NCBI GenBank assembly: GCA_026391715.1
Contig: JAPLDO010000032.1
Span: 1-64,000 of the forward strand
Direction of reading: 5' to 3'
Length of the DNA stretch: 64,000 nucleotides
Source of the DNA: Bacteroidota bacterium
Lineage (GTDB): Bacteria; Bacteroidota; Bacteroidia; Bacteroidales; FEN-979
Shown: in pieces, positions 1 through 41,004 of the stretch
Layout: each line of letters starts with the position of its first letter
How positions within the stretch are numbered: position 1 is the first letter of the stretch
Notes under the pieces: generated by a model
Told to the model about the DNA's origin: nothing
Seen by the model: only the letters and a program-made list of their open reading frames with translations
Databases searched by the model: none
Program-made: the position numbers and the translations under genes

Positions 1-2957
1 ATTCATGCGATGCCTTTACATGGAGAATTGTTCCCGAACCCGCATTGCTTGTAGTAAATACAATAGCTGACATAGTTATGCCAAAATGTTTTGGAGGCAG
101 CGATGGTTCAATCAGCAATATTCAGGTTTCCGGCGGCACTTCACCATATTATTATTTGTGGAGTACTGGCGCTACAACTAAGGATATCACTGGTTTGAAT
201 AGCGCATTGTTTACGGTAACTGTTACCGATTATCATAACTGTTGGACAACACAGAGTTTCTTTGTTGAGCAGCCCACTGAATTGGGTATTTCTTCTGTTA
301 TTGTTGACCCTGTTAAATGCTTTGGGAATGCAGACGGCGGAATTGATATAACCGTTACAGGTGGAACTCCTTCGTATAGGTATTTGTGGAGTAATTTAGA
401 AACCACACAGGATATCGGCGGATTAGTGGCTGGGACTTATGCAGTAACTGTTACAGATTTTAATTCATGTGAGCAATTCGGTTCCTGGGTAGTTAATGAA
501 CCAGATGAACTTACTATTCCTAGTTTCACCTTAATCAAACCATCTTGTAAGTCGGTTGACGACGGCGCTATTAACATCACGGTAGCAGGTGGCACAGCTC
601 CATATTATTTTGAATGGAATACCGGAGCTACAACTCAGAATATCAGCGGACTTTATGCTGGTTCATACAGTGTTATCGTTACCGATGCAAATACCTGTTT
701 TTATACCTACGGTTGGGATCTGGAAGAGCCAGGCGAAATATCCTGGAGAGGCGTGGCAGATAGTGTAACCTGTCATGGATTCAACGATGGCAAAATTACT
801 GAGACTTGGGTCAGTGGCGGTACTCCACCATATTATTATATATGGAGTAACGGAGCCACTACTAAAGATCTGACCGGACTGTATGCAGGTACTTATTCGG
901 TTACAATATCTGATTATCATTCATGCGATGCTTTTACATGGAGAATTGTTCCCGAACCTGCATTACTTGAAGTAAGTCCAATAGCTGACATAATTACTCC
1001 AAAATGCTTTGACGGTAACGATGGTTCAATCAGCAATATTCAGGTTTCTGGCGGCACTCTGCAATATCATTATTTATGGAGTACAGGCGCTACAACTAAG
1101 GATATAACTGATTTGAAGAGCGACTGGTACACTGTGACTGTTTCCGATTTCCATAATTGTACTGCTTCAAATTCCTTCTGGGTTCCCGATGCGCCATCAT
1201 GGACATTTGACATTGGTGGACCTAGTCCAGTATGCTGCAATACAAGTATGGTTAATGACACTGCAACGTATCAGGTGACTAATTTGACTCCAGGATTACC
1301 GACGCCATTAACTTATCAATGGGTTGTTACAGGAGGTATCATTGTTGAAGGTCAGAATACCCCAAAAATTAAGGTAATCTGGTCATGCTGTGGTACTGGC
1401 TATGTTTATCTTACAGTAACTCAGGGACCTCCTAATCATTGTAAGCTGACAAAGTTCAGGGAGATTATTATCACTCCTACACCTGCACCTGTTATTTCAG
1501 GCCCGATTTCAGTTATGGCTAATGATACCGCGACATATTGCGTGGTTAATGGCGATCCCACTCACTTATATTCATGGGATATAGTTGGTATTGATACTAT
1601 TCTTTCTGGTCAGGGAACAAGCTGCATCACCGTTATATGGGGCGATTATCCTCCATGTGGTTGTGGTGAAGTCTATGTTTGCGAATCAACGCCGGTTAAT
1701 CCAAATTGTCAGGGCTGTACAGGATTCACAATAGTCATCCTGCCTAGACCAGCAAATATTGATTTGGAAGGTACTGTTTACTACAAGAATATCTATGGTA
1801 CTGCGCTAAATGGTGTAACCATCAACCTGAGAGATGTAGCAACCAATTATATTGTTGCTACAACAGTCACAGGTCCAAACATGAATCCACCTGATTATAC
1901 TGGCGCTCCAGGGTACTACGCATTTACAGTTCCTAATGGAAATTATAAACTTGAAGCTTCCTTCGACGGAACATGGGGTGGAAACAATGCAACCGACGCT
2001 CTCCTGATCCAACTCGAAGCAGGTGCAGCTCCGGGAACTTATCTTAATGGGTTGTACAGGAAAGCTGCTGATGTTAATGGTAGCAACACTGTTACCGCAT
2101 TGGATGCGCTTTATGTGAAATTACGTACGGTAGGTTCGATTACTTCTTACCCGGCCGGTGACTGGAAATTCAACGATACGATTACCTCAACTCCACGAAT
2201 CCTGCCATTAGATTTCTACGGTCTCTGCTTTGGTGATGTCAACGGTTCTTATATCCCTACCGGACTGAAGGAACTTTCATTCCTTTCAACTGTTGAAGAT
2301 TTGATCCAAACAATTCCTGTTGAAGAAACATTTACCTATTCAATTCGCAGCAACACTAGCGCAAAACTTGGCGCTATGACTCTCTTCATGGGTTATGATG
2401 CCGATCGTTTCGAAGTTGTTGACATTGCTTCTCAGAATGATGAAATGAAGTATGTCATCGAAAACGGAACCGTTGCAATTGCATGGGCAGATGCCAATCC
2501 ATTATCAGTACAGAATGAAGATCAACTATTTACACTTACTGTAAAGGCGAAGGTTCCGGTTGCGGAGGCTATGCCGATCTTCAGCGTCAAAACTGGTAGT
2601 GAATTTGCCGATGGTTTTGGTAACAGGTATGATAATTTTGAACTGAAAATGTCCAAAGTTATTACACCAAATGGATCGAACGCATTCTCAATCTTTAACT
2701 ATCCGAATCCGTTCTCCGATATTACCAGGATTGTTTACACCCTACCTGAATCTGGCAATGTGAAGTTGTTGATTACCGACATGTACGGTAAAACCATCCG
2801 CACACTTGTTAATGAAACCCAAGCCGTAGGATCACACACTGTTACTGTAAATGCTGCTGATCTCAACCTTTCTACAGGCGTTTACCTGTATAGAATAGAG
2901 GTTGCCGGCGTTACAGACAACTATGTGAAAGTTAATAAACTGATCTTTGCGCGGTAG
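1..2957 (+). CDS. SprB-repeat/dockerin/cohesin-like T9SS surface protein (5' end outside window)
   Basis: The frame is open to the left edge: codons from base 3 encode SCDAFTWRIVPEP, which recurs at the end of a later repeat, so the gene begins upstream and the TTG at 45 is not its start. Five SprB-type repeats (about nt 55-1200) each carry a C-F-G-x-x-D-G-x-I motif, a GGTxPYxYxWS core and a TVTDxxxC end. Two PKD-like domains follow (about 1200-1750), then a regulatory-like beta domain, a two-part dockerin-like segment (about 1975-2150, ADVNGSNTVTALDA), a GLCFGDVNGSY linker, a cohesin-like domain (about 2290-2670) and a type A T9SS sorting domain starting at YPNPFSD. The product should be exported by T9SS and anchored or released at the surface. 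The dockerin and cohesin-like parts suggest protein-protein assembly. The partner is unknown. Confidence 0.9.
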   Translation, partial: SCDAFTWRIVPEPALLVVNTIADIVMPKCFGGSDGSISNIQVSGGTSPYYYLWSTGATTKDITGLNSALFTVTVTDYHNCWTTQSFFVEQPTELGISSVIVDPVKCFGNADGGIDITVTGGTPSYRYLWSNLETTQDIGGLVAGTYAVTVTDFNSCEQFGSWVVNEPDELTIPSFTLIKPSCKSVDDGAINITVAGGTAPYYFEWNTGATTQNISGLYAGSYSVIVTDANTCFYTYGWDLEEPGEISWRGVADSVTCHGFNDGKITETWVSGGTPPYYYIWSNGATTKDLTGLYAGTYSVTISDYHSCDAFTWRIVPEPALLEVSPIADIITPKCFDGNDGSISNIQVSGGTLQYHYLWSTGATTKDITDLKSDWYTVTVSDFHNCTASNSFWVPDAPSWTFDIGGPSPVCCNTSMVNDTATYQVTNLTPGLPTPLTYQWVVTGGIIVEGQNTPKIKVIWSCCGTGYVYLTVTQGPPNHCKLTKFREIIITPTPAPVISGPISVMANDTATYCVVNGDPTHLYSWDIVGIDTILSGQGTSCITVIWGDYPPCGCGEVYVCESTPVNPNCQGCTGFTIVILPRPANIDLEGTVYYKNIYGTALNGVTINLRDVATNYIVATTVTGPNMNPPDYTGAPGYYAFTVPNGNYKLEASFDGTWGGNNATDALLIQLEAGAAPGTYLNGLYRKAADVNGSNTVTALDALYVKLRTVGSITSYPAGDWKFNDTITSTPRILPLDFYGLCFGDVNGSYIPTGLKELSFLSTVEDLIQTIPVEETFTYSIRSNTSAKLGAMTLFMGYDADRFEVVDIASQNDEMKYVIENGTVAIAWADANPLSVQNEDQLFTLTVKAKVPVAEAMPIFSVKTGSEFADGFGNRYDNFELKMSKVITPNGSNAFSIFNYPNPFSDITRIVYTLPESGNVKLLITDMYGKTIRTLVNETQAVGSHTVTVNAADLNLSTGVYLYRIEVAGVTDNYVKVNKLIFAR

Positions 2958-2974
2958 TAAAAACCGAAACAAGT

Positions 2975-3007
2975 GGGCAACAATGAATCAGTTGCCCCTT
3001 GTTTTTT
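2975..3007 (+). terminator. Rho-independent terminator
   Basis: A perfect 7-bp stem (GGGCAAC at 2975-2981, GTTGCCC at 2991-2997) with a 9-nt loop is followed by a T run at 3002-3007. It sits 18 nt after the stop of the first gene, separating it from the next one. Confidence 0.8.
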
Positions 3008-3018
3008 ATTAAAAGAAA

Positions 3019-4071
3019 ATGAAACACTTCCAGACTGAGTCTAAAATGAAATATCAATTTGTTATTTTCTTTTTAGTTTTTCAGTGCAATTTAATGTCTG
3101 CGCAGATCGCTTCCATTTCTACAATGGAGATCTGCGCAGGCCAGGAGGTGTTTGTTCCTGTTAATGGAAACGCATTAAGTAATATAGGGGCATTGACTTT
3201 TTATATAGACTTCGACACTAATAATCTAACATTTTTATCTGTAGAAAATATTGATCTACAGTTAAGTGGAATGAGTATAAACCTGATGGTAAACCCAACC
3301 CAATTAGCATTTGCTTGGAGTAATACAGTTCCGATCAGTTTTATTAATACAAAATTGTTCGATATAAAATTTCTTTCAAATGGACAATCTTCCGTAGTCC
3401 ATTATAATACTGGCTGTGAACTTTCTGATACCGATGGAGTTGTAATCCCTGTTACATACATTGATGGTGCGATAAACTCGGGATTACCTGTTCTTTTTAG
3501 TAGTCCTCATGATACAACAGTATTTGAAAATGGAAGTGCTTCCTTCATTACTGATGCTGCAAATGCTTCCTCCTATTTATGGAGAGAAAGTCAGGACAAC
3601 GGAGTAAGTTGGATAGCATTGGACGACAATGAAATATTTTCAGGTACACACACAGGATCATTGACAATCTCACAAATACCTATAACCTTTAACAAAAATT
3701 TCTATCAATGCGTTCTATATAGGGGTATATGTCAGATAAATTCTAACCCCGCCAGATTAACCGTAGATGAATTTTCAGGCATTTCGGTTGAATCAATTTT
3801 TAAATATAAAAATTTTAGTGTTTCTCCAGTCCCTTTTCGTGAGTTTATTACCATTGAATTTACGCTTGAGAAAAAGTGCAATGTCAAAATTTCGATTATC
3901 AACATTATGGGACAACTTGTCGCGAATATCGAATTACCCTCTCAATCAGAAGGGTCTCATTATATAAAATTTAACACGCTGAACTGGCTTTCGGGCTTGC
4001 ATTTTGTCAGAATGCAACAGATATTTCCAGATAGCAAGTTTGATAGTGTTATAAAGGTTATTAGAAAATAA
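3019..4071 (+). CDS. Cohesin-like/Ig-like T9SS-sorted protein
   Basis: A 350-aa secreted protein. A signal peptide (hydrophobic stretch ending MSAQ) precedes a cohesin-like domain (about residues 30-150, with the FYIDFDTNNLTFLSVENID strand pattern and an AFAWSN strand), an Ig-like domain (about 155-250, WRESQDNGVSW...YQC) and a T9SS type A sorting domain (from about 265, ending VIKVIRK). The start at 3019 is preceded by an A-rich leader; the Met at 3046 is an alternative that shortens the n-region. It is a paralogue, with the same domain order and length, of the protein at 7278-8351. Each copy directly precedes a large multi-cohesin gene. No catalytic domain is seen; a structural or binding role is inferred. 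Confidence 0.88.
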   Translation: MKHFQTESKMKYQFVIFFLVFQCNLMSAQIASISTMEICAGQEVFVPVNGNALSNIGALTFYIDFDTNNLTFLSVENIDLQLSGMSINLMVNPTQLAFAWSNTVPISFINTKLFDIKFLSNGQSSVVHYNTGCELSDTDGVVIPVTYIDGAINSGLPVLFSSPHDTTVFENGSASFITDAANASSYLWRESQDNGVSWIALDDNEIFSGTHTGSLTISQIPITFNKNFYQCVLYRGICQINSNPARLTVDEFSGISVESIFKYKNFSVSPVPFREFITIEFTLEKKCNVKISIINIMGQLVANIELPSQSEGSHYIKFNTLNWLSGLHFVRMQQIFPDSKFDSVIKVIRK

Positions 4072-4116
4072 TAAATTTAAAATACCTAAAGTTTTAACCA
4101 CCTAAAACATGAACCT

Positions 4117-7100
4117 ATGATTAAAAAAATTACAATGTTAATATTTTTGGTATTGTTCTCTGTAACAATATCCTTAGGTCAGATGGCATCGCTGCAGTAC
4201 CAAACAGCCTATCCTAATACGACCACAAGTGTTGCGATTAATGTAGATAATTTTACCAACATTAATTCATTTACGTTCTACATTCATTATGACCCTGAGA
4301 TTTTTGACTTTATAGGTTTAAGCGACGCTTTTCCTGGCATGAATGGTATGATTGCCAATCCTAATGGTTCTGTAATAAGCATATTATGGTCTTCTCCTTC
4401 TATACCTTATTCACCGACTGGTACTTTATGTAAAATGAATTTTTTATATAAAGGAACTACTGGAATTTTAGCATTTTTACCAGGATGCGAAGTGACTCAT
4501 GGCTCTATTCCATTTCTTGTTGGATATGCTAATGGATCCGTTTCTCCTGAGTGCGCTTTGAATGATTCTAAAGCTATAATTGGTGATATTGCTGGCGCTA
4601 CAGGGGATATCTTAAGCCTGCCTGTTAACTTTTCAAATTTTCCTGATGTTGGGGCTTTTACTCAATACATTCATTATGATGTTTCTAAGCTGACATTTAT
4701 ATCCATAACTACTGGCGGCTCTTTAGTTGGAACCATTTATAGTGCAAACAATGGTGTAATAACGGTTTCCTGGGTCACTCCTCTGGCATTTCCAGGTGGG
4801 AAAAACATTAACACTATTACTCCGAACATGATGAAACTTAATTTTGAGTGTAATTTTCCCGGAAATTCAACTGTAGAATTTGGTCCTGGAGGAGTATTTA
4901 CTACTGGAAACCCTTCATTAAACAATATTGAGGTTTGTTATACTAACGGGAATGTTACCCAAACTCCAACTGTCGAATCGGCAAGCCTGCCTAACCAGAC
5001 AGGTATAGTTCAAGGCGAAGATATTTTTATACCGTTAAATCTTAATATTTCGGTCCCTGTTTCTTCTTTTACTCTTTACCTGAATTTTAATTCACCTGTT
5101 TTATCTTTTACTGGTATCCAAATCGTTAATCCTTTAAGCGCTTCAGTTATTCCAAATGTTTCGGGTAGTCTAATTACCCTTGTTTATACTGATCCGACAT
5201 CTGGTCTGATTTTGCCAGGAACGTTCCTTAATTTAAAGTTTAAATATAATGGGATAATTCCCGGGTTTGTCAACTTTATAGGAATGAGCCAGTTTACTAA
5301 CAATTTTTATCAGCCTATCAATGTGGGCTTTACAAATTCAACAGTTTCTCCTGGCGTTTCCTTGCCAAATGCAACCGTAACAATTGGAACAGTTCCCGGT
5401 AATGTAAATGATTTCGTTGAGGTGCCTATTGATATTGTTAACGGTTATCCAAACCCATTATTGGGAGCTGCAACTATGTTTATTGGTTTTGACGAGTCAA
5501 AACTATCCTTTATAGGCGCAGTGGATAATGTGCATAATGCAACTGTAAATCTCACGGGTAATCAGATCGGTATTGCATGGGTGGATCCCAGTGGGGTTAA
5601 CCTAACGGGCGCTTTCCTTAAACTGAAATTTCAATATCATGGTGGCGGCGGGAATAGTTGTGGTTCAGAGATTTATTTTAAAAATGATAATCTCACTCTT
5701 CAGCCTTGTGAACTTGCAAATAATCTTGCCCAATTTGTTCCGGGAAACTGGGTAAAGGGTGGCGTGAATCTTTCTTTGACACAACCTGTTATTAATGGAC
5801 CTCCAGCCCCACCAGCTAATTCAACAGCTTATTATTCTACTGATGTTGGCATGATTAACTATGATTGGACAGTTTCCGGTGGAACAATAGCATCAGGTAA
5901 TGGAAGTAATTCTATTACTGTTGATTGGGGGGCAGTTGGACCAGGGTTTATAACTATTGATTACAATAATGCTGGTGGATGTTCCCTTAATTATACAAAG
6001 AATATCGTGAAATTATCAGGCTCGCCAATCACAAATATTGAGGGATACGTTACTTATGACAATTTGGCATCACAAGGATTAAATGGCGTAAATATTACTT
6101 TGTATAATTCTTTAGGCGTCCAGGTCGGTAATCCCGTTTCAACACATACAAATATTGGCAATGGATTTTATAGTTTTACTGGCGTACCTCAGGATGCTTA
6201 TACGATTGTAGTTAGTCAATCAGCCCCATGGGCAGGTACTCCTGGCGTCAGCGCTCTAGATGCTTTAATTGATGAGCTTCAGACCGTTGGCTTATATAAT
6301 CCTCCCTTGTCAGGTATTCGGTTAGCTGCAGCCAATGTTGACGGAGGTTCAGCGGTTAATTCAACAGATGCTTTAAATATTAAGAAACGAATCATTGGTG
6401 AAATTTCGTCATTTCCTATAGGTGATTGGGTGTTTAATAACGGAATCATTAACGCTTTTAATAGTCCTGTTTCAAACTATAATTTTAAAGGATTATGCAC
6501 GGGCGATGTAAACGGTTCGTACAACCTTATTGGAAATAAATCGGCAACCGTTTTTGATGTAGTAGAAGACGATATTCTGACTGTTAATACTAATGAGTGG
6601 TTTACGTATAATATTAAAAGTGGAGTAAATACTCGTCTTGGCGCTATGACCTTGTACCTTTCTTATGATTATGACCGTTTTGAAATCGAGAGAGTTAGCG
6701 CCAATATGGTGGGTTTAAAATCATCTATCAAGAATGGAAATATAGTAGTAGCATGGTCTAACCCTTCAGCAAGTATGATCGGCGTTGGGGATGTGATTAT
6801 TTCTTTCCGTATTAAAGCAAAACAAACGATAACCAATCCAGGTAGTATCTTTACTATTATGACAGAATCTGAATTGGCAGATCCAGTTGCAAATGTTATA
6901 AATTCTTTTCAGTTTAATATGGCGAAGGTCATAACTAACACGAACCAATTCAGTTTTACAACTTCCCCAAATCCATTCTGCATCTCTACAAACATTTTAT
7001 TTTATCTTCCGGATGCGGGGAGAGCAAAATTTACAATAACCAATCTTGTAGGCAGGCAAATTTGTGTGCTTGTTGATGAAATTGTTTCTTCAGGTAACCA

Positions 7101-7221
7101 TGTCGTTTTATTCGATGCAACTAAATTTAATTTAACCCCTGGCATATATCTTGGAAAACTGGAGTTTGAATCGCTAAATCAAAAAGTTTCTGCCGTTAAT
7201 AAAATAATATTAACGAAATAA
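4117..7221 (+). CDS. Multi-cohesin, dockerin-bearing T9SS surface protein
   Basis: A 1034-aa protein with a signal peptide ending SLGQ. Four cohesin-like domains are tandem (about residues 22-148, 150-288, 290-415 and 416-560), each with a YIHYDxxxLxFIG or FIGFDESKLSFIG strand and an SWV/IAWVDP strand. A PKD-like domain (about 566-632), a regulatory-like beta domain and a split dockerin-like region follow (SALDALIDELQ near 712, ANVDGGSAVNSTDA near 740). Next come GLCTGDVNGSY near 792, a fifth cohesin-like domain (about 815-930) and a T9SS sorting domain (from about 945, ending NKIILTK). One protein thus carries both putative receptor and ligand modules, as in a scaffoldin. No enzyme domain is visible. 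It lies 45 nt after the small cohesin gene, likely co-transcribed. Confidence 0.9.
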   Translation: MIKKITMLIFLVLFSVTISLGQMASLQYQTAYPNTTTSVAINVDNFTNINSFTFYIHYDPEIFDFIGLSDAFPGMNGMIANPNGSVISILWSSPSIPYSPTGTLCKMNFLYKGTTGILAFLPGCEVTHGSIPFLVGYANGSVSPECALNDSKAIIGDIAGATGDILSLPVNFSNFPDVGAFTQYIHYDVSKLTFISITTGGSLVGTIYSANNGVITVSWVTPLAFPGGKNINTITPNMMKLNFECNFPGNSTVEFGPGGVFTTGNPSLNNIEVCYTNGNVTQTPTVESASLPNQTGIVQGEDIFIPLNLNISVPVSSFTLYLNFNSPVLSFTGIQIVNPLSASVIPNVSGSLITLVYTDPTSGLILPGTFLNLKFKYNGIIPGFVNFIGMSQFTNNFYQPINVGFTNSTVSPGVSLPNATVTIGTVPGNVNDFVEVPIDIVNGYPNPLLGAATMFIGFDESKLSFIGAVDNVHNATVNLTGNQIGIAWVDPSGVNLTGAFLKLKFQYHGGGGNSCGSEIYFKNDNLTLQPCELANNLAQFVPGNWVKGGVNLSLTQPVINGPPAPPANSTAYYSTDVGMINYDWTVSGGTIASGNGSNSITVDWGAVGPGFITIDYNNAGGCSLNYTKNIVKLSGSPITNIEGYVTYDNLASQGLNGVNITLYNSLGVQVGNPVSTHTNIGNGFYSFTGVPQDAYTIVVSQSAPWAGTPGVSALDALIDELQTVGLYNPPLSGIRLAAANVDGGSAVNSTDALNIKKRIIGEISSFPIGDWVFNNGIINAFNSPVSNYNFKGLCTGDVNGSYNLIGNKSATVFDVVEDDILTVNTNEWFTYNIKSGVNTRLGAMTLYLSYDYDRFEIERVSANMVGLKSSIKNGNIVVAWSNPSASMIGVGDVIISFRIKAKQTITNPGSIFTIMTESELADPVANVINSFQFNMAKVITNTNQFSFTTSPNPFCISTNILFYLPDAGRAKFTITNLVGRQICVLVDEIVSSGNHVVLFDATKFNLTPGIYLGKLEFESLNQKVSAVNKIILTK

Positions 7222-7236
7222 CCGGAAACAATGATA

Positions 7237-7267
7237 GGGAGGCTTTATAGCCTCCCTTTCTCTTTAT
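7237..7267 (+). terminator. Rho-independent terminator
   Basis: A perfect 8-bp stem GGGAGGCT/AGCCTCCC (7237-7244 and 7249-7256) with a TTAT loop is followed by a T-rich tract. It closes the first small/large cohesin gene pair, right before the second pair begins at 7278. Confidence 0.85.
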
Positions 7268-7277
7268 AAACAGATGC

Positions 7278-8351
7278 ATGAAGAAATTATCAAATTCCTT
7301 AACCATAACTATTTTGATTATGGTTTTTTTTATTTTAGTGGGGTTTAATCCCGGTCGGAGTATAATTGCTCAATCACCAATGATCTCCTTAGGAAATATT
7401 GGAATTTGTAATTATGAACCATTGCTAATTCCATTAAATGGCAAAAATTTAGCAAATATTGGAGCAATAACATTGTTTATATATTTTGATAGTGAAAAAT
7501 TAATATTTCGTTCATTGGAAAACATTAATTCAAAGATTATTGGATTGCAATTTAATGTGTTAAATAATCCTTCTTGTGTTAGTATTGTATGGAGCAATAC
7601 AAAAGGAGTTAATTTCCCAGATAACCTTTTACTATATATCAAGTTTGATGTTATAAACTCTTCTGGAATGATTAAATTCGCAATTGATAGTTGCGAGATT
7701 GCTGTTGCTAATATCCCACCGGAGATTATTCCCGTGGAATATTTAAATGGATCATTCTATTCTAAAAATCCTATTATTACTGAAAATCCTGAAAATATAA
7801 CAGTATTTTGTAATTCAAATGCTCATTTTAATATAACTTCACTTGGCTCAACAGAGTATCTGTGGCAGGCGAGTGTTGATGCTGGAAATTCCTGGATAGA
7901 TTTAGAGGATGGCGCTTCTTACTCTGGTACCACCTCTACTGATCTTGCAATTTTGAATGTTCCTGTAACTTTCAACAATAACCGCTACCGTTGTTCTGTT
8001 ACAAGAGAAAATTGTAGTCTTTATTCCACGGATGCGCTGCTTTCAGTCGATTCTTTGTCGTGGATTAGTGAAATTGGTAATTCTGGAATGGTAATTTCCA
8101 ATTTTCCTAATCCTTTTTCAGAAAGAACCCGATTATCCTATTATGTTCCAAAATCAGGAGAAGTTACGATTGATTTATTTACTTTAATCCATAATCGTGT
8201 AATTACAATTATTAAAGGATTTCACCTGACAGGGCTATACATAATTGAATTAAATTTAGTATATTTGCCCAATGAATTATACTTGTGCCAATACAAATTG
8301 GAAACTAACCAAGTTGTGGCTGTAAGAAATCGTAAAATAATTAAGAAATGA
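7278..8351 (+). CDS. Cohesin-like/Ig-like T9SS-sorted protein (paralogue of 3019-4071)
   Basis: A 357-aa secreted protein. The signal peptide ends near SIIAQ. A cohesin-like domain follows (about residues 35-160; GAITLFIYFDSEKLIFRS, then a VSIVWSNT strand), then an Ig-like domain (about 165-258; EYLWQASVDAGNSWIDL, YRCSVTRENC) and a T9SS sorting domain starting at FPNPFSERTRLSYY. Domain order, length and position in front of a large multi-cohesin gene match the protein at 3019-4071, so the two small/large pairs look like a duplicated unit. The sorting domain ends in KIIKK, as usual for the family. A binding or structural role is inferred only. Confidence 0.88.
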   Translation: MKKLSNSLTITILIMVFFILVGFNPGRSIIAQSPMISLGNIGICNYEPLLIPLNGKNLANIGAITLFIYFDSEKLIFRSLENINSKIIGLQFNVLNNPSCVSIVWSNTKGVNFPDNLLLYIKFDVINSSGMIKFAIDSCEIAVANIPPEIIPVEYLNGSFYSKNPIITENPENITVFCNSNAHFNITSLGSTEYLWQASVDAGNSWIDLEDGASYSGTTSTDLAILNVPVTFNNNRYRCSVTRENCSLYSTDALLSVDSLSWISEIGNSGMVISNFPNPFSERTRLSYYVPKSGEVTIDLFTLIHNRVITIIKGFHLTGLYIIELNLVYLPNELYLCQYKLETNQVVAVRNRKIIKK

Positions 8352-8417
8352 TAATTGTTTAAGTTTAATATATATTAACAAGTCCCTTTAAAGTAATAAA
8401 CGAAAATAATATTTACC

Positions 8418-10601
8418 ATGATGAGAAAAGGTACTTTAGTTATTCTGGCATTTTTGATCTTTAGATCACTATCTTATGGACAATATACTGCAAGTTTGCC
8501 AAACATGGTTGCAAGTCCAAATGAGAATATTGGAATGGATTTGAATGTGACCGGGTTGAATACAAATAATATTGCTTCTATACAATTTTATATTCAGATC
8601 GATCCAGCAGTATTAACATTTCAAAATGTTACAAATTTTCAGCAAGCAGGTCTGATGGTGGGTTTTATTAACGGAAACACTATTACTATAGTTTGGACAA
8701 GCGGAAGTCCTAAAAACTTTCCTAATGGAAGGCTATTAACGTTGAATTTTAAATACAATGGGCTAACTAGTCCTGTATCCTTTATACCATTGAATTGTGA
8801 AGTTGTGAAACTTGTGGGATCACCGCCAATACCTGTTATGCTTACTGGAACATTTAATAATGGGTCGGTAAGTCCATTTATGGGTAATCAGGCAAAAGCA
8901 AGGTTGGATAGTTTGTTAAATGCCCCTTTGGGGACAGATACAGTTTCTTTGAAATATACAGGTTTTATTGGAAATAATCTTTTACCTCTTTCGGTTGGCG
9001 CTATTACCCAGAGAATTTCTTATGATCAAGCAAAGCTTACTTTTGTTGGAGTAACAGGTGTGGGAAATCTTGCCACCGGGTTTAATGTAAATGTTGCTGC
9101 GGGAATTATTACTATTACCTGGACAAGTGTTGCCGGAAAGAATATTAATTATCCGGGTAATATGTTTAAGATTATTTTTAGTTATATAAATGCTTCTCCA
9201 ACAAATGTTAATTTTAGTACTGGATGTATAATAGAAACTACAGCGCCGGTTACAAATATTGTTGTTTCATATTTTAACGGTTGCGTTATACCGCCTCCGG
9301 TTGTAACATCTTATGCTTCAATAGCAAATGTAACTGGCGGAATTCAGGGGCAAACAGTAGATGTTCCATTGAACTTTTCGAGTATGCCAACCAATACATC
9401 AAATTTCAACCTGAATATTTCATTTGATAGTCCAAAGTTGTCTTTTGTTGGAATAGTTGGTACTCCCATTCAACCGGTAACTTACAATGTAAATGGAAAT
9501 TTGATTTCTTTAACGAATGCTTATCCACTAACACCTAATCCTTCAATTAATGGTCAGTTCCTTAAATTGCGATTTGTTTATATGGGTGTGGGTACAGCAA
9601 ATGTGAATTTTGCAAGCGGGTGCCAATTTTCAAATGGCGCGCCAATAGGCGTGGGTTACACAAACGGTTCTGTTTCGCCGGCTGTTGTTCTTGGTAATAA
9701 TGTAACTATTGGAACTATTGCCCCACCCGGCCCGGGAACAGTTTTAGTTCCGGTTACTTTAAGTGAAATGCCTATTAATGTTGGCGCTGTTACAATGTTT
9801 ATTGGCTTTGATGCTTCTAAGCTTATCTACACTGGCTGTACAGGAATAAATAACCCTTATGCCGCCAATGTTAATCTTAATGGCGGTATTATAAAAATTG
9901 CCTGGGCAAGTACTAACCCACCAAATCTTAACGGTTCTCCTTTTGTCAATCTCCAATTTACTTATGTGTGTGGGTCTGGAGCCTCTGGTAGCGCTGCCAG
10001 AGTTTATTTTACTGATAATGGTATTAGCGAATATTGTCGGATTGATTCTTTGTCAGGAAAAATCATTCCCTCGAACTGGCATGATGGGGGTGTAAATTTA
10101 AATGTTACTTTTAAGATTAGCGGCACACTAAAGTATAACAGTGATCCAAATTTGCGCATCCCTTTGGTTGGATACACGGTAAAGTTATTAACTATTGGAG
10201 ATGTCTTGGTTACATCAACAGTTACTGATGGTTCCGGTTATTTTGAATTTTTTACTTCTAACGGAAGTTTTAAGCTCGATGCGGCGCCTCCTTCAATATA
10301 TAATTATTACTCTGATTTGGATGACGTTTTAGCTATGTTGCAATATACTGTCGGCGAACCTATCCCTTTTTTCAATGATTTACGTTTATTAGCTGGTGAT
10401 GTGAACCAGAATGGAGACATAGATCTTGATGACGTTGTTGATGTCCTTCAGCGAGGAGTTGGTGAAAAGTTGCCTGATTATACTGCGCCTGACTGGGTTT
10501 TCAGCGTAAAACTTGTTAACTGTAGTTGTGCTGATGTTCCTAATCAAAATTTCATGGGACTAAACACTGGTAATGTTTTGGGAACCAATCCCACTCCGTA
10601 A
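8418..10601 (+). CDS. Four-cohesin protein ending in a dockerin, no T9SS sorting domain
   Basis: A 727-aa secreted protein (signal peptide ending LSYGQ). Four cohesin-like domains lie at about residues 22-150, 160-290, 298-425 and 430-550. A short regulatory-like beta domain (about 562-620) and a C-terminal dockerin-like segment follow. The dockerin has a good calcium-loop pattern, GDVNQNGDIDLDDVVDVLQ, preceded by a weaker first half (DLDDVLAMLQYTVG). Unlike its neighbours it stops after GLNTGNVLGTNPTP. The distal cohesin-like and sorting domains of the 4117-7221 protein are missing. It may be held at the surface through its dockerin rather than by its own sorting signal, or the gene may be 3'-truncated. 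The stop at 10601 is followed after 38 nt by the next start. Confidence 0.88.
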   Translation: MMRKGTLVILAFLIFRSLSYGQYTASLPNMVASPNENIGMDLNVTGLNTNNIASIQFYIQIDPAVLTFQNVTNFQQAGLMVGFINGNTITIVWTSGSPKNFPNGRLLTLNFKYNGLTSPVSFIPLNCEVVKLVGSPPIPVMLTGTFNNGSVSPFMGNQAKARLDSLLNAPLGTDTVSLKYTGFIGNNLLPLSVGAITQRISYDQAKLTFVGVTGVGNLATGFNVNVAAGIITITWTSVAGKNINYPGNMFKIIFSYINASPTNVNFSTGCIIETTAPVTNIVVSYFNGCVIPPPVVTSYASIANVTGGIQGQTVDVPLNFSSMPTNTSNFNLNISFDSPKLSFVGIVGTPIQPVTYNVNGNLISLTNAYPLTPNPSINGQFLKLRFVYMGVGTANVNFASGCQFSNGAPIGVGYTNGSVSPAVVLGNNVTIGTIAPPGPGTVLVPVTLSEMPINVGAVTMFIGFDASKLIYTGCTGINNPYAANVNLNGGIIKIAWASTNPPNLNGSPFVNLQFTYVCGSGASGSAARVYFTDNGISEYCRIDSLSGKIIPSNWHDGGVNLNVTFKISGTLKYNSDPNLRIPLVGYTVKLLTIGDVLVTSTVTDGSGYFEFFTSNGSFKLDAAPPSIYNYYSDLDDVLAMLQYTVGEPIPFFNDLRLLAGDVNQNGDIDLDDVVDVLQRGVGEKLPDYTAPDWVFSVKLVNCSCADVPNQNFMGLNTGNVLGTNPTP

Positions 10602-10639
10602 TTCATTTTCGATTTGTGATATGTAAATTCGATACAATT

Positions 10640-12691
10640 ATGAAAAACAAATTCAAATATTTTAGGAATACAACCATTATTTTATTCATGTTAGTTGTAT
10701 CTCAAATTGTTATAGGTCAGGCTCCGGTTGCAACAATTAACTATAACGCTACCGGCTTGGTTCCTGGGTCACCAATATCTGTACCACTGACGTTGACCGG
10801 GACTCAGGTTGGAAATTTATCTTTTGTGATTTCATATGACAGGGATATTCTAACTTATGTTGATTATACAACAACTTTACCGTTAGGAGCTGTTGGGAAC
10901 AATTTTTCTTATTTAGGGCAATTGTATTTGAGGGCTGCTTCTGTAAGTTCGAGCGGGGTAACTTATATAAATCAGACAATATTCACTTTTAACTTTATTT
11001 ATAATGGTGGTTCAACAAACATAAGTTTTTTTAACATTGCCGCAGCTACAAGTCAAACTGCTAATTGGTTTACATATATTAAAGCGAATCCGTATAATAT
11101 TATAAATCTGGCATCGGTTTTCAATAATGGTTCAGCAAGTGGCGAGTATGATACCCTTACATCTATTGCTGGTGGTGGTAATTGGAGTAACCCTACAACA
11201 TGGCAGGAAAACTATCCCACAGGTTTAAAAAAACCGACAAGGGCATGCAACGTAATTATTACTGCTAATGAGGTTATTGACACTGCAACTGTTTCATTAG
11301 GAAGATGTAATAATCTTACAATAAATACTGGAGGCAGGCTTACTTTACCTTTAGGAAAATCTTTAACTGTTAACGGAGCTTTTAACATCGAATCCGGAGG
11401 GTCTTTTGTTGATCAAAACCAAACAAGCGCTCTTTTTGCAACAGTAAAAAGAGCTATTTCCGGCAACTATGCTGGTGGTGGAAATCCTACGCCTACAACA
11501 ATATGGCATTATGTTTCAGCTCCTACTTCAAATGCGACAATAGGTACATTTTTGGGCTGTTTATTGAATAAATGGACAGAAAATTCCGCAGGTGGAACAT
11601 GGGATACCCTATGTCTCCCGCTAACTTTACCATTGGAGGTAGGACGAGGATATTCTGTGGCTGCATTTAACAGTTTTGGCAATGCGATTTTTTCTGGACC
11701 CCTGAATACAGGAAATATGACTATAAGCGGTTTAACTAACTCTAATCCTAACCCAGGTACTGGCAACGGTTATTATGGTTACCATCTTTTAGGAAACCCA
11801 TATCCCAGCGCTTTTAAATGGAATAATGCGGTTGTTTTGACGCCTCCGCAGGTTGATGGCGCTGTATATTTTTGGAATGGCTCTAATTATGTTGCAAAAA
11901 CACAAGCTATGGGCTATGAAATTCAAGCTGAACAAGGTTTCTTTTTTCATGTCAATGCCTCTGGTGGTTCTGTTACAATTCCAAACGGAAATCGGGTTCA
12001 TTCTGATAGCGCTTATTTGAAAAGCAGTATCGAAAACCAATTAACACTGACAGTCAATGGCAATGATTTAGTAGATGAAACTTCTGTGATATTTAATGAT
12101 CAAGCCACACAAGGGTTTGATGGAGAATATGACGCATATAAATTATTTGGTATATTTAATTGTCCTCAGATATATTCAATTCTTTCCGATAATATTTTAT
12201 CAATTAATACATTACCAGATATGATTTCTCAACCTGTTGTTCAACTTGGTTTTAAATCAGGTCTGTCCGGTTCATTTACAATAAATGCCATTGGACTCGA
12301 AACTTTTGCATCAGGGACCAATTTTTACCTGACAGACCTGTTAACAGGTAAGGTTCAAAACTTAGCGTCTAATCCGGTTTATGTATTTAACTCATCACCC
12401 GGTAATACTGAACACAGATTTGATTTGCATTTTGCACCGGTCGGGATGAATGAAACAGGTAATATTAGTAATTTAAAAATTTACTCTTTTGATAATAATG
12501 TATTTGTGAATATTGCGGATGAATTACAAGGGAGTATTATCATCTATGATTTACTTGGAATAGAAGTTGCGAAAAAAGCAATAGAGTCCAAAACTTTGAA
12601 TAAAGTCGAAATTAATTCACCTGGTGGATATTACCTTGTAAAAATAGTAACTAATAAAATTTCTGCAACTGAGAAGGTATTTATCCGATAA
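10640..12691 (+). CDS. Cohesin-like T9SS-sorted surface protein
   Basis: I place the start at the ATG at 10640 (MKNKFKYF), which gives a normal signal peptide ending VIGQ; an in-frame GTG 24 nt upstream only adds a polar tail. The mature protein has one N-terminal cohesin-like domain (about residues 18-165). A segment beginning GGNWSNPTTWQ follows, with the beta-solenoid/G8-like look common in Bacteroidota surface proteins, then a long unassigned beta-rich region (GNPYPSAFKWNN). The C-terminal sorting domain (about 600-683) ends EKVFIR. It closes the cohesin gene run and is followed by a small PID-CTERM-like gene. The function of the middle part is not recognised. Confidence 0.87.
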   Translation: MKNKFKYFRNTTIILFMLVVSQIVIGQAPVATINYNATGLVPGSPISVPLTLTGTQVGNLSFVISYDRDILTYVDYTTTLPLGAVGNNFSYLGQLYLRAASVSSSGVTYINQTIFTFNFIYNGGSTNISFFNIAAATSQTANWFTYIKANPYNIINLASVFNNGSASGEYDTLTSIAGGGNWSNPTTWQENYPTGLKKPTRACNVIITANEVIDTATVSLGRCNNLTINTGGRLTLPLGKSLTVNGAFNIESGGSFVDQNQTSALFATVKRAISGNYAGGGNPTPTTIWHYVSAPTSNATIGTFLGCLLNKWTENSAGGTWDTLCLPLTLPLEVGRGYSVAAFNSFGNAIFSGPLNTGNMTISGLTNSNPNPGTGNGYYGYHLLGNPYPSAFKWNNAVVLTPPQVDGAVYFWNGSNYVAKTQAMGYEIQAEQGFFFHVNASGGSVTIPNGNRVHSDSAYLKSSIENQLTLTVNGNDLVDETSVIFNDQATQGFDGEYDAYKLFGIFNCPQIYSILSDNILSINTLPDMISQPVVQLGFKSGLSGSFTINAIGLETFASGTNFYLTDLLTGKVQNLASNPVYVFNSSPGNTEHRFDLHFAPVGMNETGNISNLKIYSFDNNVFVNIADELQGSIIIYDLLGIEVAKKAIESKTLNKVEINSPGGYYLVKIVTNKISATEKVFIR

Positions 12692-12727
12692 TTAAATGCA
12701 TAATCTGACAATCAAAATCAAAAGAAA

Positions 12728-12982
12728 ATGAAAAAAATAAGGACTTATTTTGCCATAGTCGCCTTGATTTCTCTTCCCTTTTTTTGTGTTGCTGATAATC
12801 CCGGACCTCCTCCTCCTCCTGGCGGCGGCGGACCAGGCGGTGGAGGAACACCGGTAGGAGCGCCTATTGATGGGGGGATAGGGATCTTACTGGCGCTTGG
12901 TTTGGGTTACGGAGGTATGAAACTATTTCAGTCCCGGAAAGATAAGGACATTAATTCAGAAATGGATAAAATAGAAGAATAG
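12728..12982 (+). CDS. Small PID-CTERM-like sorted peptide
   Basis: An 84-aa protein in four parts: a signal peptide (MKKIRTYF to about CVADN), a Pro/Gly-only low-complexity stretch, the motif APIDGG followed by a hydrophobic segment (IGILLALGLGYGGMKLF), and a charged tail (QSRKDKD...). The P-I-D-G-G motif plus one hydrophobic helix plus basic residues matches the Bacteroidota PID-CTERM sorting signal as I remember it. The longer acidic tail after the basic residues is unusual. No sorting enzyme gene lies in the window. It sits 36 nt after the cohesin gene in the same direction, so it may belong to the same transcript. Confidence 0.75.
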   Translation: MKKIRTYFAIVALISLPFFCVADNPGPPPPPGGGGPGGGGTPVGAPIDGGIGILLALGLGYGGMKLFQSRKDKDINSEMDKIEE

Positions 12983-13085: not shown

Positions 13086-13130
13086 AATTATTATACAATT
13101 TACAATTATTCACAATTAATTTTATCGGTT

Positions 13131-13562
13131 ATGAAGAAAATTATTGCTGTATTATCATTGTTGTTTATGGGGTTTTGTGGATATTCACAGGAGTTAAAAC
13201 CTGAAATGGTTCCACAAAAAATATTAGACAGGTTTCATCACACATTTCCTCAATCGGTTGATCTCCCTGTGTCTTGGGTGAAAGAGAAAGGTGATTATAA
13301 AGCTACACTCACAATTATGGAATCTCCAGCGATAATGGTTATTGATTCACTGGGGAAAACGAAAAGAATTGAACGAAAAATCAATGAAATATATCTGCCT
13401 AAAAATGCAAAAGATTATTTGAAAAATTTAGATTCTAATTATCAGGTTATTACAGTTACAAAAATTGTAGACGAAAAGGATAAGGTAACTTATAACACTA
13501 CTGCGAAGATAAAGACCAATTTCACTTTCGACGATAAAGGAAAAATCTCCAATCCGAAATAA
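13131..13562 (+). CDS. Secreted PepSY-like protein
   Basis: The start at 13131 (MKKIIAVLSLLFMGFCGYSQ) gives a clear signal peptide; the open frame extends further upstream but only through non-coding looking sequence that includes the inverted repeat. The mature part of about 123 residues begins ELKPEMVPQKILDRFHHTFP and continues WVKEKGDYKATL, the pattern of periplasmic PepSY-like (BLIP-like) domains of Bacteroidota. One such domain is present, with a Lys-rich C-terminus. The exact role is unknown. It is convergent with the next gene, the two sharing one terminator. Confidence 0.75.
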   Translation: MKKIIAVLSLLFMGFCGYSQELKPEMVPQKILDRFHHTFPQSVDLPVSWVKEKGDYKATLTIMESPAIMVIDSLGKTKRIERKINEIYLPKNAKDYLKNLDSNYQVITVTKIVDEKDKVTYNTTAKIKTNFTFDDKGKISNPK

Positions 13563-31151: not shown

Positions 31152-33002
31152 TTAATTCTGAATGTCAATGTCTCCTTCAACGGTTAGAAATATGCCGGCA
31201 TTTACAGTCAACTTGCCTCCGGGCAGAATATTGATGTTTTTCCCGGGATTGAGATTTTTATTGAGGATTACTGTTGATGTTGAACCAATAGTCACATCGC
31301 AGTTCGCGCCGATCTCCAGGCTACCAGTTCCGCTAATCAACTGGTTTGCCGCTCCGTTGAACTTTAGCAAACCGCCGGTAGGATTGAACCGGAGTGTCCC
31401 TGCATTTACCAGAAGATTTCCTTTGATGGTAACGCCGCCGGGAAAATCGAAACCGGCAAGAATCTCGTTGACAACGGTAAAATTATCAATTGCGCAAACC
31501 GCTGAACCTGTTGTAACTGTCTGGTTGAAACTAACTGCATCAATCACGAAATCGGAATATATGCGTCCGGAAAGCGATGGGACAGAATTAGTCTTATGCT
31601 TGTAAACGCTGCCTGGTTGAAAAATCACCACGCTATTAGGGCTTACCGCCCCAAAAGGAGGAAGACCCGATTCGAGGGAATAAACCGAACCTCCTGAAAA
31701 GTAAACTGAATTGAGAGCCGTTGTTCCAAAGGGAGTTCCGCTGAATCCTGTTCCCGCTGTAAACAAAGCGCCGGCGGTAAAAACGATTGAACCGGCGTCG
31801 GCAGCCGTAAAAAGGTGCGCTGCATTTTGAAAAACGATCGTTCCCGCAACAGAGCCGGAATAGCCTGCCGGTAAATTGATTGTCACAGGGTTCGCCCCCG
31901 AAATGGTAAGCGTTGAGCCGCCTGCAACTTCGAACTGCGGAGCCACAGCGCCTGTAACGCCAATAGTCACGGCGCGGGCTGCTGTATTTCCTGTTAACGT
32001 TACTGATGCGTTGTTGATAATCCGCAATCTGCCCACAACCTGAGTACTTGTAAAGTCAACCGTAACGGTGGAAACCGGCTTCAAAGCTCCATCAAAAATC
32101 AGTATATCTCCGGAAACAGGGATGGTTCTTGCCGGAGTCCAGCTTGTAGGGGATGACCAGTTGCCGGAAGTTACATTCCACGAGTATGATGCAGGTTGAG
32201 GCATATATTGCGCCCAAATCAGACCTGCATATTCAGGGTGGTCAATAAACGGATTTCTGTTGTGCTGGATATTCTTATAAATTGAATCGTTTCGGTTAAT
32301 CTCCTTCTGTGAAACCGGGTCAAGCAAACTCCATTGCAACATCATTGCCTGTGCCCAGGGAAGGAGTTGCGCGCCGCTGGCCATAGGACTTCCCGCCCAA
32401 CCGGCATCCTCGTTATAATACCGTGTTTCCATGTAAAAATAGGTGCGGGCAAAATCTCCCTTAAAATCGTCGCGCGGTTCAAAAACAATACCTGAATAGC
32501 CGGGCGTGACACAACTGCCCAGTTTGCCGCCGTTCAATGAAGTCCATGTGGCTGCGCCTACTTTTCCGTAAGGATAATTGTCGCGCATTCCATTTACTTT
32601 TCCATCAGTTGGATAAATATGGAAAATATCCGAATTCATTGGAGAAGTATCATTGAACCAGCTTTTGGGCCAGGAGTGTTCGCGGTTGTAGCAATCCCCT
32701 TCAATTGAATAGCTACCGCACTGGTCGGTAATAAAAGTATATTCATAAGGAGGCGTTCCGCCGGGGATGTCAGAGTACATGTCCCAAACCTTTCCGTTTG
32801 ACTTTTTATCAGTCTGTTTGTACCAGTTCCAAAGGGAATTATATGAAACCACGGTGTGATTATCAATAATGTTGTGAAGGGCTTGTTGTAAGGCTGTTCC
32901 GGTCAGTCCGCTGGCTGGATTATAATACCCCGAAGGAATCTGTCCATACGAGATTACAACTACTGAAAAGAAAAGCAAAAACAACAATCTTCGAATTACC
33001 AT
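31152..33002 (-). CDS. Secreted endonuclease I (EndA-type) with C-terminal beta-solenoid region
   Basis: 616 aa; signal peptide ending ISYGQ. Residues about 25-270 are an endonuclease I domain (PF04231 type): YNSLWNWYKQTD, the His-Asn nuclease core DCYNREHSWPKSWF, DIFHIYPTDGKVNGMRDNYPYG, and NRNPFIDHPEYAGLIW. This family cuts DNA/RNA with a metal. Residues about 285-616 begin YSWNVTSGNWSSPTSWTP and are beta-rich and repetitive (ASVTLTGNTAARAVTIG), as in G8/solenoid regions of Bacteroidota surface proteins. There is no recognisable T9SS sorting domain; the protein stops at GDIDIQN. A role in extracellular nucleic acid use or biofilm DNA is inferred. Confidence 0.85.
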   Translation of the reverse strand: MVIRRLLFLLFFSVVVISYGQIPSGYYNPASGLTGTALQQALHNIIDNHTVVSYNSLWNWYKQTDKKSNGKVWDMYSDIPGGTPPYEYTFITDQCGSYSIEGDCYNREHSWPKSWFNDTSPMNSDIFHIYPTDGKVNGMRDNYPYGKVGAATWTSLNGGKLGSCVTPGYSGIVFEPRDDFKGDFARTYFYMETRYYNEDAGWAGSPMASGAQLLPWAQAMMLQWSLLDPVSQKEINRNDSIYKNIQHNRNPFIDHPEYAGLIWAQYMPQPASYSWNVTSGNWSSPTSWTPARTIPVSGDILIFDGALKPVSTVTVDFTSTQVVGRLRIINNASVTLTGNTAARAVTIGVTGAVAPQFEVAGGSTLTISGANPVTINLPAGYSGSVAGTIVFQNAAHLFTAADAGSIVFTAGALFTAGTGFSGTPFGTTALNSVYFSGGSVYSLESGLPPFGAVSPNSVVIFQPGSVYKHKTNSVPSLSGRIYSDFVIDAVSFNQTVTTGSAVCAIDNFTVVNEILAGFDFPGGVTIKGNLLVNAGTLRFNPTGGLLKFNGAANQLISGTGSLEIGANCDVTIGSTSTVILNKNLNPGKNINILPGGKLTVNAGIFLTVEGDIDIQN

Positions 33003-39251: not shown

Positions 39252-39302
39252 GATACTCAGGTTTTGGTTTGTTTTAGCTTGATATTTCTGAAATTATTGT
39301 TG

Positions 39303-39310
39303 CAAATTTA
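39303..39310 (-). promoter_or_regulatory. Perfect -7 box TAAATTTG upstream of the 2004-aa gene
   Basis: On the minus strand TAAATTTG fits the Bacteroidota TAnnTTTG -7 consensus and lies about 50 nt before the start codon. No convincing -33 TTTG was seen at the right spacing. Confidence 0.4.
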
Positions 39311-39332
39311 CGGAATGTGACGTTTTAACAGG

Positions 39333-40646: not shown

Positions 40647-40662
40647 ACCATCAAAATAATAG

Positions 40663-41004
40663 TTAGAACTGAATGTTAAATATTATCGTATTGTCGGGTA
40701 ATGTTTTACCGGGAGAAGTAAACCAGCCTAAAATAATTTCGCCAGGTACGGTGAGATTTGAGTTTAATGTTCCTCCGAGGAGAGTACCGGTAGTTACAAG
40801 TGTAGCGGTGGCTATTGAGGGATTATAAGTCAGTTTTAAACTACATGATCCGATGTTTGTAAAATTAGTTGCGGTAATGGGTATAGTTGCTATGGCGCCA
40901 AAAGTGGCAACACTCCCTGCGGTTGAAACTGGGGCGTTCTGGGCATGACAACTTGCGTAAATCACATAAAATATAGCCCATAACCATACTGATAAATTTT
41001 TCAT
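40663..41004 (-). CDS. N-terminal fragment (signal peptide + partial cohesin) of the broken cohesin gene
   Basis: 113 aa: signal peptide MKNLSVWLWAIFYVIYASCHAQ, then most of a cohesin-like domain (VPGEIILGWFTSPGKTLPDNTIIFNI) that matches residues 1-110 of the 2004-aa protein. It then meets a stop in QF*. The 39333-40646 part follows in another frame. The lesion is a deletion of roughly 100 nt plus a frame change at about 40660-40675, within an otherwise collinear paralogue. Confidence 0.7.
   Translation of the reverse strand: MKNLSVWLWAIFYVIYASCHAQNAPVSTAGSVATFGAIATIPITATNFTNIGSCSLKLTYNPSIATATLVTTGTLLGGTLNSNLTVPGEIILGWFTSPGKTLPDNTIIFNIQF

Follow-up and report, generated by a model that had tools for sequence, protein, structure and literature searches.

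The 64,000-nucleotide stretch analysed here, hereafter the window, is the first 64 kb of contig C19 (JAPLDO010000032.1) in the assembly GCA_026391715.1 of a Bacteroidota bacterium, a 5.02-Mb genome that is 99% complete. At its start lie six consecutive plus-strand genes, A to F, which encode secreted cohesin proteins; the cluster spans 3-12691 and ends there rather than at 12982. On balance, the cluster is best explained as encoding an enzyme-free cohesin-dockerin assembly of the cell surface, exported by the type IX secretion system (T9SS) and laid out on the plan of a cellulosome, in which protein E would be held on protein F. This explanation builds on observed features: the modules and their architecture, their conservation, the T9SS genes of the genome, the lack of enzymes among the scanned dockerin proteins, and a history shared by the E dockerin and the F cohesin.

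Proteins E and F and their shared history

Gene E (8418-10601, plus strand) encodes a protein with a signal peptide, recognised by eye, four cohesins (8484-8876, 8892-9293, 9309-9680 and 9696-10097) and a C-terminal X-dockerin (10116-10598). Like C, it has the makeup of a scaffoldin, a non-catalytic protein with several cohesins. T9SS C-terminal sorting domains (CTDs) were found in none of the ten E proteins scanned, namely window E and nine orthologs. The protein ends 0-8 residues past the dockerin motif in all 14 orthologs with a complete end, which rules out a truncated gene. Gene F (10640, its ATG, to 12691, plus strand) begins with a diverged cohesin (about 10724-11140), continues with a long part that matches no family and closes with a type A CTD (12506-12685). 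E-type scaffoldins score at least 670 bits in 15 of the 19 genomes of the genus, and the gene order in relatives is A, B, optionally C, optionally D, E, F, a 144-aa protein and a membrane protein on the opposite strand. Such a conserved cluster argues against a chance origin of the module matches. The same genome holds an E paralog with two cohesins and a different C-terminal half (L003/L134, 3-1952 of G000:C24), which is cut by the contig end.

The second calcium loop of the E dockerin falls into three classes. Class R comprises ten rows, mostly of the form GDV..LRR; class D reads LDDV in the window and in its relative L071, and IDDL in L130; class F reads EDDA..FYRANG in L055 and L063. The classes differ at dockerin loop positions 10, 11, 17 and 18, which are recognition positions. 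They cut across two lineages defined by the E cohesins, and each comes with a matching F cohesin, which has diverged more than any other module of the cluster (mean distance 0.71). An HLR motif in the F cohesin, for instance, is present in 9/9 R-class genomes and in 0/4 genomes of the other classes.

Module distances tell the same story. The partial correlation of the distance matrices for the E X-dockerin and the F cohesin is 0.76 (label permutation p 0.0005; 14 clusters), with the F cohesin taken as the first 180 residues and a single B/D gene counted under both labels. With cleaner modules in 12 genomes it is 0.80, the top of 190 module pairs. The other gene junctions give 0.18 (D CTD with E cohesin 1) and -0.40 (F end with the small protein) and, in seven genomes, 0.25 (A CTD with B cohesin) and -0.20 (B CTD with D cohesin). 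No correlated change of the E dockerin with the D, E or A cohesins was found in these module-distance correlations.

The trees place the conflict at the same modules. The tree built from E cohesins 1-4 requires five class changes (15 rows), those of the E X-dockerin and the F cohesin two each (15 and 13 rows) and that of the rest of F four (11 rows). In approximately unbiased (AU) tests, grouping by class is rejected for E cohesins 1-4 (p 2.6e-57, 8e-50 and 2.6e-6) and for the rest of F (p 0.0024, 6e-31 and 4e-7), and grouping by lineage for the E X-dockerin (p 5.9e-48 and 3.4e-8) and for the F cohesin (p 4.6e-33 and 7.8e-42). The foreign grouping is thus rejected in 10/10 tests, the weakest at p 0.0024; the trees were quick ones, and the groups were never named from the tested module, although they were picked after the conflict had been seen. 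Three relatives, L052, L062 and L131, regroup alike in the E X-dockerin and the F cohesin (98 and 85% support). When the sequences are compared in a sliding scan, over 13 genomes for E and 11 genomes for F, the exchanged block begins at roughly residue 556 of E and ends at roughly residue 190 of F, close to module borders. The row set includes the near-copies L064 and L065; L064 and L132 lie outside the sliding scan and the set for the rest of F, and L065 lies outside the trees. The record of L064 (SACF01000052) is titled Alphaproteobacteria, yet it is near-identical across the cluster to L065, titled Bacteroidales, and its title looks wrong.

Plain linkage is disfavoured by the position of the borders near module ends, by the lack of such a signal at the four other junctions (0.25 or less) and by the differences at recognition positions. 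The simplest reading suggested by these sequence comparisons is that the E dockerin and the F cohesin are a cognate pair that travels together.

Modules of the six proteins and the recurring cassette

The proteins A to F were checked with Pfam, NCBIfam and purpose-built hidden Markov models (HMMs). The latter, trained in part on the window's own modules, were used because Pfam scans of very long proteins missed cohesins that score up to 37 bits in the genome search. The cut-offs were 24.1 bits for Cohesin (PF00963), 22.9 for Dockerin (PF00404), 23 for TIGR04183 and 27 for Por_Secre_tail. C (85.6 bits) and E (87.3) exceed the PF00963 cut-off, while B (23.5), A (20.3) and F (16.6) fall below it. 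D has no PF00963, TIGR04183 or Por_Secre_tail match of its own; among four scanned orthologs, one reaches 32 bits with PF00963 and three 14.5-19.8. Four F orthologs were likewise scanned, giving 25.4 (L071), 17.3 (L063), 13 (L052) and no match (L068). In searches with structure models, the cohesin of the C cassette adopts the cohesin fold (Z 12.2 to 2vn6_A, 119 residues, 2.3 A), as does the F cohesin of L071 (Z 14.2, 130 residues, 2.2 A); the B, D and E cohesins are known by sequence. Profiles, orthologs and these two folds together bear out the preliminary description, which had read six consecutive secreted cohesin proteins by eye and had named a fold outside the cohesins as grounds for rejection.

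That description also placed dockerins in three of the six proteins, and these are confirmed in A, C and E. PF00404 scores A at 21.2 bits in the protein scan and 25.0 in the genome search, and C at 16.1. Window E has no PF00404 match; of its nine orthologs, one lies above the cut-off (25.6), five score 17-23 and three have none. A profile of 15 of these dockerins matches cellulosomal dockerins in the PDB (best 2.4e-11). Three dockerin helices appear in both AlphaFold2 (AF2) models; the fold searches barely probe them, as cohesin and X fill the match lists. The paired loop-and-helix plan of type I dockerins is recognisable; the first loop is degenerate in A, C and window E, and calcium-loop residues are mostly retained in the second.

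Sorting domains are present in five of the six proteins, in keeping with the earlier count of 'nearly all'. TIGR04183 matches A (29.6) and F (25.4) above the cut-off and B (22.2) below it, with no match in C, D or E; Por_Secre_tail matches A (32.9) and B (27.6) above, F (18.2) and C (9.4) below, with none in D or E. Orthologs of D score 19.5-24.9 with Por_Secre_tail. A, B and F therefore carry clear type A T9SS sorting domains, while those of C and D are diverged and recognised by homology only. The genome encodes SprA (2609 bits), GldJ (483.7 bits, above the cut-off) and two PorU-like proteins (1345 and 1234 bits). Its type A sorting domains number at least 150, with 150 of 270 candidates scored. 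The two PorU-like genes stand in tandem beside GldJ (G000:C49:4443-14454), a doubled T9SS sortase. No type B CTD match of the genome search lies on the window's contig, and the CTD of A is type A.

Pfam, NCBIfam and the purpose-built profiles found no catalytic domain in A to F, and the Pfam scan found no carbohydrate-binding module (CBM) family there. Among 15 scanned dockerin proteins of the genome, none has a catalytic Pfam family above the cut-off; five of these are cut by contig ends and one (L006) was covered to residue 5700 of 6192, and paralog L011 and eight weak dockerin matches of the genome search lie outside the 15. Enzyme-named matches in those proteins are beta-propellers (Kelch_4, and NANM below the cut-off) or N-terminal non-catalytic domains.

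Gene A (3-2957, plus strand) loses its 5' end to the contig start; it encodes five SprB repeats, a PKD_6 domain and a cassette of X (1761-1970), dockerin (1974-2258), cohesin (2313-2666) and CTD (2685-2954). Complete A proteins in three relatives (L064, L067 and L068) measure 2833-3056 aa. Gene B (3019-4071, plus strand) encodes a signal peptide, one cohesin (3103-3477), an Ig-like part and a T9SS CTD (3811-4062). Gene C (4117-7221, plus strand), an optional member, encodes four cohesins in a row (4180-4548, 4567-4959, 4975-5352 and 5371-5769), PKD_6, X (6034-6228), dockerin (6244-6525), a fifth cohesin (6583-6939) and a weak CTD (6949-7218). Gene D (7278-8351, plus strand) is a paralog of B (31% over 346 aa, 2e-51) with one cohesin (7377-7760), an Ig-like part and a diverged CTD (8088-8348). 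A terminator-like hairpin between C and D (7236-7257, plus strand) may split off D, E and F as a unit from A, B and C; it is a pattern match, of which the region has 10 against 7.5 expected. After F comes the small protein of about 144 aa (13125-13559, plus strand), which has no Pfam family and occupies the same position in relatives.

The last 300 residues before the CTD of A and C can be aligned over their full length with those of seven further proteins in the genome. The order X, dockerin, cohesin, CTD recurs in at least nine proteins there, behind N-terminal parts that vary between SprB repeats, Kelch with beta-helix, MAM, GEVED and PKD. An AF2 model of the C cassette (6034-6939; 79 sequences) has a predicted local distance difference test (pLDDT) value of 92.4 and a predicted template-modelling (pTM) score of 0.90, which predicts that X, dockerin and cohesin form a single rigid block. 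Its X part matches transthyretin-like 5aq0 over model residues 1-156 (79 of 81 residues, Z 8.8, 1.7 A), a span that contains the dockerin helices at residues 74-120; in the second model, from L071, 80 of the 82 residues of 3e8v align over 3-154 (Z 11.3, 2.0 A). Conserved strands follow the dockerin (GDW...GLCxGDVNGSY) and seem to complete the X domain. The aligned residue counts and ranges, rather than coordinates, point to a dockerin inserted within a transthyretin-like X. Foldseek also returned Gram-positive pilins (3kpt, 4hss) at low TM-scores, reflecting a shared arrangement of beta domains. In cellulosomal X-dockerin dyads, X is not known to be interrupted, and the dockerin comes after it. 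Such dyads are described from cellulosomes in PMC5590126.

The cassette alignment matches 29 of 61 genomes at E 1e-10 (19/19 in the genus, 7/18 in the rest of the family and 3/24 in other families). With cohesins counted at E 1e-4 in the same 61, both occur in 25 genomes, the cassette only in 4, the cohesin only in 6 and neither in 26; outside the genus the counts are 7, 3, 6 and 26 (Fisher p 0.005), a statistic that ignores kinship and in which the cassette itself holds a cohesin. Records of the 77 cassette-bearing loci are mostly titled as metagenome-assembled genomes of uncultured Bacteroidales or Bacteroidetes, and sample names of several (LacPavin, Loclat) suggest lakes.

The fetched loci contain 139 dockerin genes with complete ends (dockerin at least 25 bits; near-identical ends counted once). 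A CTD closes 101 of these, 30 stop no more than 6 residues past the dockerin and 8 differ from both. The 30, of which 12 are E-type, indicate that the dockerin is used without a following cohesin. This class includes, in other genomes, a glycoside hydrolase family 18 (GH18) protein (L111, 8807-10450; titled Ignavibacteriales) and a purple acid phosphatase (L100, 7694-10456; titled Bacteroidales). Another locus of this class (L113, 4577-13448) holds a tandem of four genes that all stop exactly at an X-dockerin and lack a sorting domain; galactose-binding-like (PF23759) domains occur in three of the four. A cohesin lies in the downstream same-strand neighbour, within 600 bases, of 64 of 108 dockerin genes (an array-type cohesin for 53, a cassette-type one only for 11). 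For the genes of those loci that lack such modules, the figure is 20 of 254; the loci were selected for holding a cassette, which biases the comparison.

The window carries a second copy of the theme on the minus strand. Here a 2253-aa protein (41113-47871) has a cohesin besides its YDG and SprB repeats, and also an X-dockerin-cohesin-CTD cassette (41431-42375), the latter among the seven aligned above. Cohesin genes lie directly downstream (33240-41004, minus strand): 40666-41004, 39336-40646 and 33240-39251, the last with two N-terminal cohesins and a CTD. The first two both match cohesins and are 20 bases apart, which looks like one gene (39336-41004), perhaps broken by a frameshift or an assembly error. 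Adjoining this cluster is an Endonuclease I family protein with a signal-like start (31155-33002, minus strand; PF04231, 260 bits). Further relatives of these modules occur elsewhere in the genome. A 6192-aa protein (L006, 18-18593 of G000:C167) holds GEVED, CARDB, ten PKD_6 domains and a cohesin, and closes with a full cassette. Another (L002, 9998-16564 of G000:C59) has four cohesins followed by SLH, DUF6531 and RHS repeats; its gene is the immediate downstream neighbour of a Kelch/beta-helix cassette gene. A gene cut by its contig end (L012, 8293-8763 of G000:C82) encodes a canonical two-loop C-terminal dockerin, unlike the nested kind.

The proposed assembly and its alternatives

In the proposed assembly, F would be exported by T9SS and anchored through its CTD. 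E, a scaffoldin with four cohesins and a C-terminal dockerin apparently nested in a transthyretin-like X, lacks a sorting signal of its own and would be held through that dockerin on the N-terminal cohesin of F; from the sequence comparisons, this role of E is likely. Its four cohesins, with the single cohesins of B and D, would gather proteins that carry the other, conserved dockerin class. Here these would be the SprB-repeat giant A and the cassette protein C, and elsewhere in the genome the Kelch, beta-helix, MAM or SprB cassette proteins. That A, C and the other cassette proteins are passengers on the E cohesins is an evenly poised proposition with co-localisation as its basis. Such an assembly would form a cross-linked layer of adhesive stalks that serves attachment or aggregation, and an enzyme-free surface assembly serving attachment is a fairly probable description of it. 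The self-assembling layer or fibre of the preliminary description is unsupported as it was put. Binding, anchoring, the route by which E leaves the cell, the dockerins that its cohesins take, and function are steps that we infer.

How E would reach the surface is a more tentative matter. The T9SS translocon is reported to bind the CTD inside the 36-strand SprA barrel (PMC10994853). It is possible, if doubtful, that E is exported through T9SS by riding on F. A broader and speculative idea is that the dockerin serves as a second, indirect T9SS address tag. Proteins with a terminal X-dockerin and no CTD, such as E and the sharply defined class of 30 among 139, would then leave the cell or stay on it only through a cohesin-CTD partner. 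E and F would form a private lock and key that is polymorphic and swapped as one unit, and that ties the scaffold of each strain to that strain's cells.

Several observations weigh against the proposed assembly. Only 11-15 clusters were compared, and the named ones are metagenome-assembled. A tethered AF2 chain (L071 X-dockerin, read-through spacer and F N-terminus; 2 of 30 rows paired) recovered the cohesin fold of F at pLDDT 79 and pTM 0.48 without confident docking. The receptor-ligand pairing of the preliminary description has its best-supported candidate in the E dockerin and the F cohesin through their shared history, while structure prediction, run as this one tethered pair, did not add a docked complex. 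The E X-dockerin also correlates with the middle part of B (0.69) and with the B cohesin (0.56) in the seven genomes with two such genes, among which only the window differs in class; earlier values, with single genes counted twice, were 0.42 (p 0.002) and 0.25 (p 0.05). B may be a further partner of the E dockerin, or the signals may reflect the window's long branch; the tree evidence for F is independent of this result. The A dockerin correlates weakly with the E cohesins (-0.11 to 0.38; best p 0.06 in the earlier comparison), so the passenger half rests on co-localisation.

The modules might be mere stacking beta-sandwich spacers in large adhesins, with the shared history of E and F produced by one recombination tract over adjacent gene ends. 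The 3' end of E adjoins the 5' end of F on the DNA, so one such tract could move both modules without any contact between them; modules that lie side by side in a single gene reach 0.74 through linkage alone, the tethered model gave no docking, and a cohesin-immunoglobulin architecture has been reported for the TMEM132 adhesion molecules. Yet spacers would leave unexplained that the calcium residues of the second loop are mostly kept, that the classes change at recognition positions, that the exchanged block ends near module borders on both sides while other gene junctions show no such correlation, that dockerin and cohesin genes are repeatedly neighbours, and that genomes with the cassette tend to have cohesins. 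This explanation is considered unlikely. The conserved cassette raises a related one, in which the dockerin of A and C packs on the adjacent cohesin of its own chain to form a rigid membrane-proximal stalk rather than a coupling. The model of the cassette as one confident block and its fixed order in at least nine proteins favour this, and the face of the cassette dockerin may, by the same model, be covered in cis, which also weighs against the proposed assembly. The 30 of 139 complete-ended dockerin genes that stop at the dockerin, with no cohesin after it, count against such a stalk, and it is judged improbable.

An enzyme complex like a cellulosome, with the enzymes encoded in other parts of the genome, would fit the same X-dockerin at the end of the GH18 protein and the phosphatase, and such a complex with T9SS-type anchoring has been proposed for Ca. 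Stygibacter (PMC8542988). These two proteins indicate that the coupling module is able to carry enzymes elsewhere, which also tells against an assembly that is enzyme-free by nature; the earlier claim that no enzyme is present holds for A to F and for the 15 scanned dockerin proteins, and it is the latter that make an enzyme complex in this genome very unlikely. A gliding or attachment apparatus, with A as a SprB-like adhesin held or moved by the cohesin proteins, overlaps in part with the assembly proposed here. SprB repeats in A and other cassette proteins, GldJ and SprA speak for it; SprB of Flavobacterium johnsoniae is reported to carry a type B CTD (PMC10994853), and that of A is type A. 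Little weight is given to it.

Relation to known cohesin-dockerin systems

The clostridial cellulosome of the CipA-SdbA type joins an X-dockerin scaffoldin to an anchoring scaffoldin. The cluster resembles it in a cohesin array that ends in an X-dockerin (E) and in single-cohesin proteins with a surface signal (B, D and F); the cohesins match by fold and the dockerins by sequence profile. Scaffoldins are described as attaching by a special dockerin to anchoring cohesins (PMC12484212). The cluster differs in that no enzymes or CBMs were found in it, that a T9SS CTD takes the place of SLH or sortase signals, that the dockerin appears nested in X, and that A and C, like further dockerin proteins, have a cohesin and a sorting domain of their own. 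The preliminary contrast between a T9SS scaffold and a classic cellulosome holds in part. A non-catalytic surface scaffold fits best, but the anatomy is hierarchical like that of a cellulosome: an array scaffoldin with a dockerin (E), single cohesins with sorting domains (B, D and F) and dockerins with sorting domains (A and C). The cluster would work like a cellulosome scaffold, yet it is not a cellulosome, as no enzymes were found in A to F or in the scanned dockerin proteins of the genome.

Other relatives lie outside the clostridia. Ca. Stygibacter (Cloacimonadota) is reported to have a cohesin scaffoldin with a conserved T9SS-type C-terminal domain and dockerin partners; its dockerins sit on GH18, GH57 and peptidases, and the relevant parts of that report describe neither a cassette nor a two-gene swap of specificity (PMC8542988). 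Anaerobic methanotrophic (ANME) archaea are described as having dockerins on S-layer proteins and scaffoldin-like proteins that combine one dockerin with up to 5 cohesins; partners there differ in including ABC substrate-binding proteins (PMC9012536). SprB-type T9SS adhesins share the SprB repeats and T9SS export; here, in contrast, the CTD is type A and is preceded by an X-dockerin-cohesin cassette. The cohesins, dockerins and T9SS signals are of known kinds, as is a cohesin scaffoldin that ends in a T9SS-type domain, reported from Ca. Stygibacter (PMC8542988). What is new, within the open-access literature searched, is a conserved cluster of this sort without enzymes, a dockerin apparently nested in X, a cassette that recurs, and an adjacent dockerin and cohesin that have been swapped as a pair.

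The role of cohesins and dockerins outside cellulosomes has been stated to be not known (PMC5244752) or not clear (PMC9012536). In this cluster both scaffold and anchor are defined, and a likely cognate pair comes in three natural specificity classes, which makes the question of role addressable with a few purified domains. If E does ride on F, T9SS would gain a way to handle cargo without a signal of its own, and the E-F pairs would provide new orthogonal calcium-dependent couplers.

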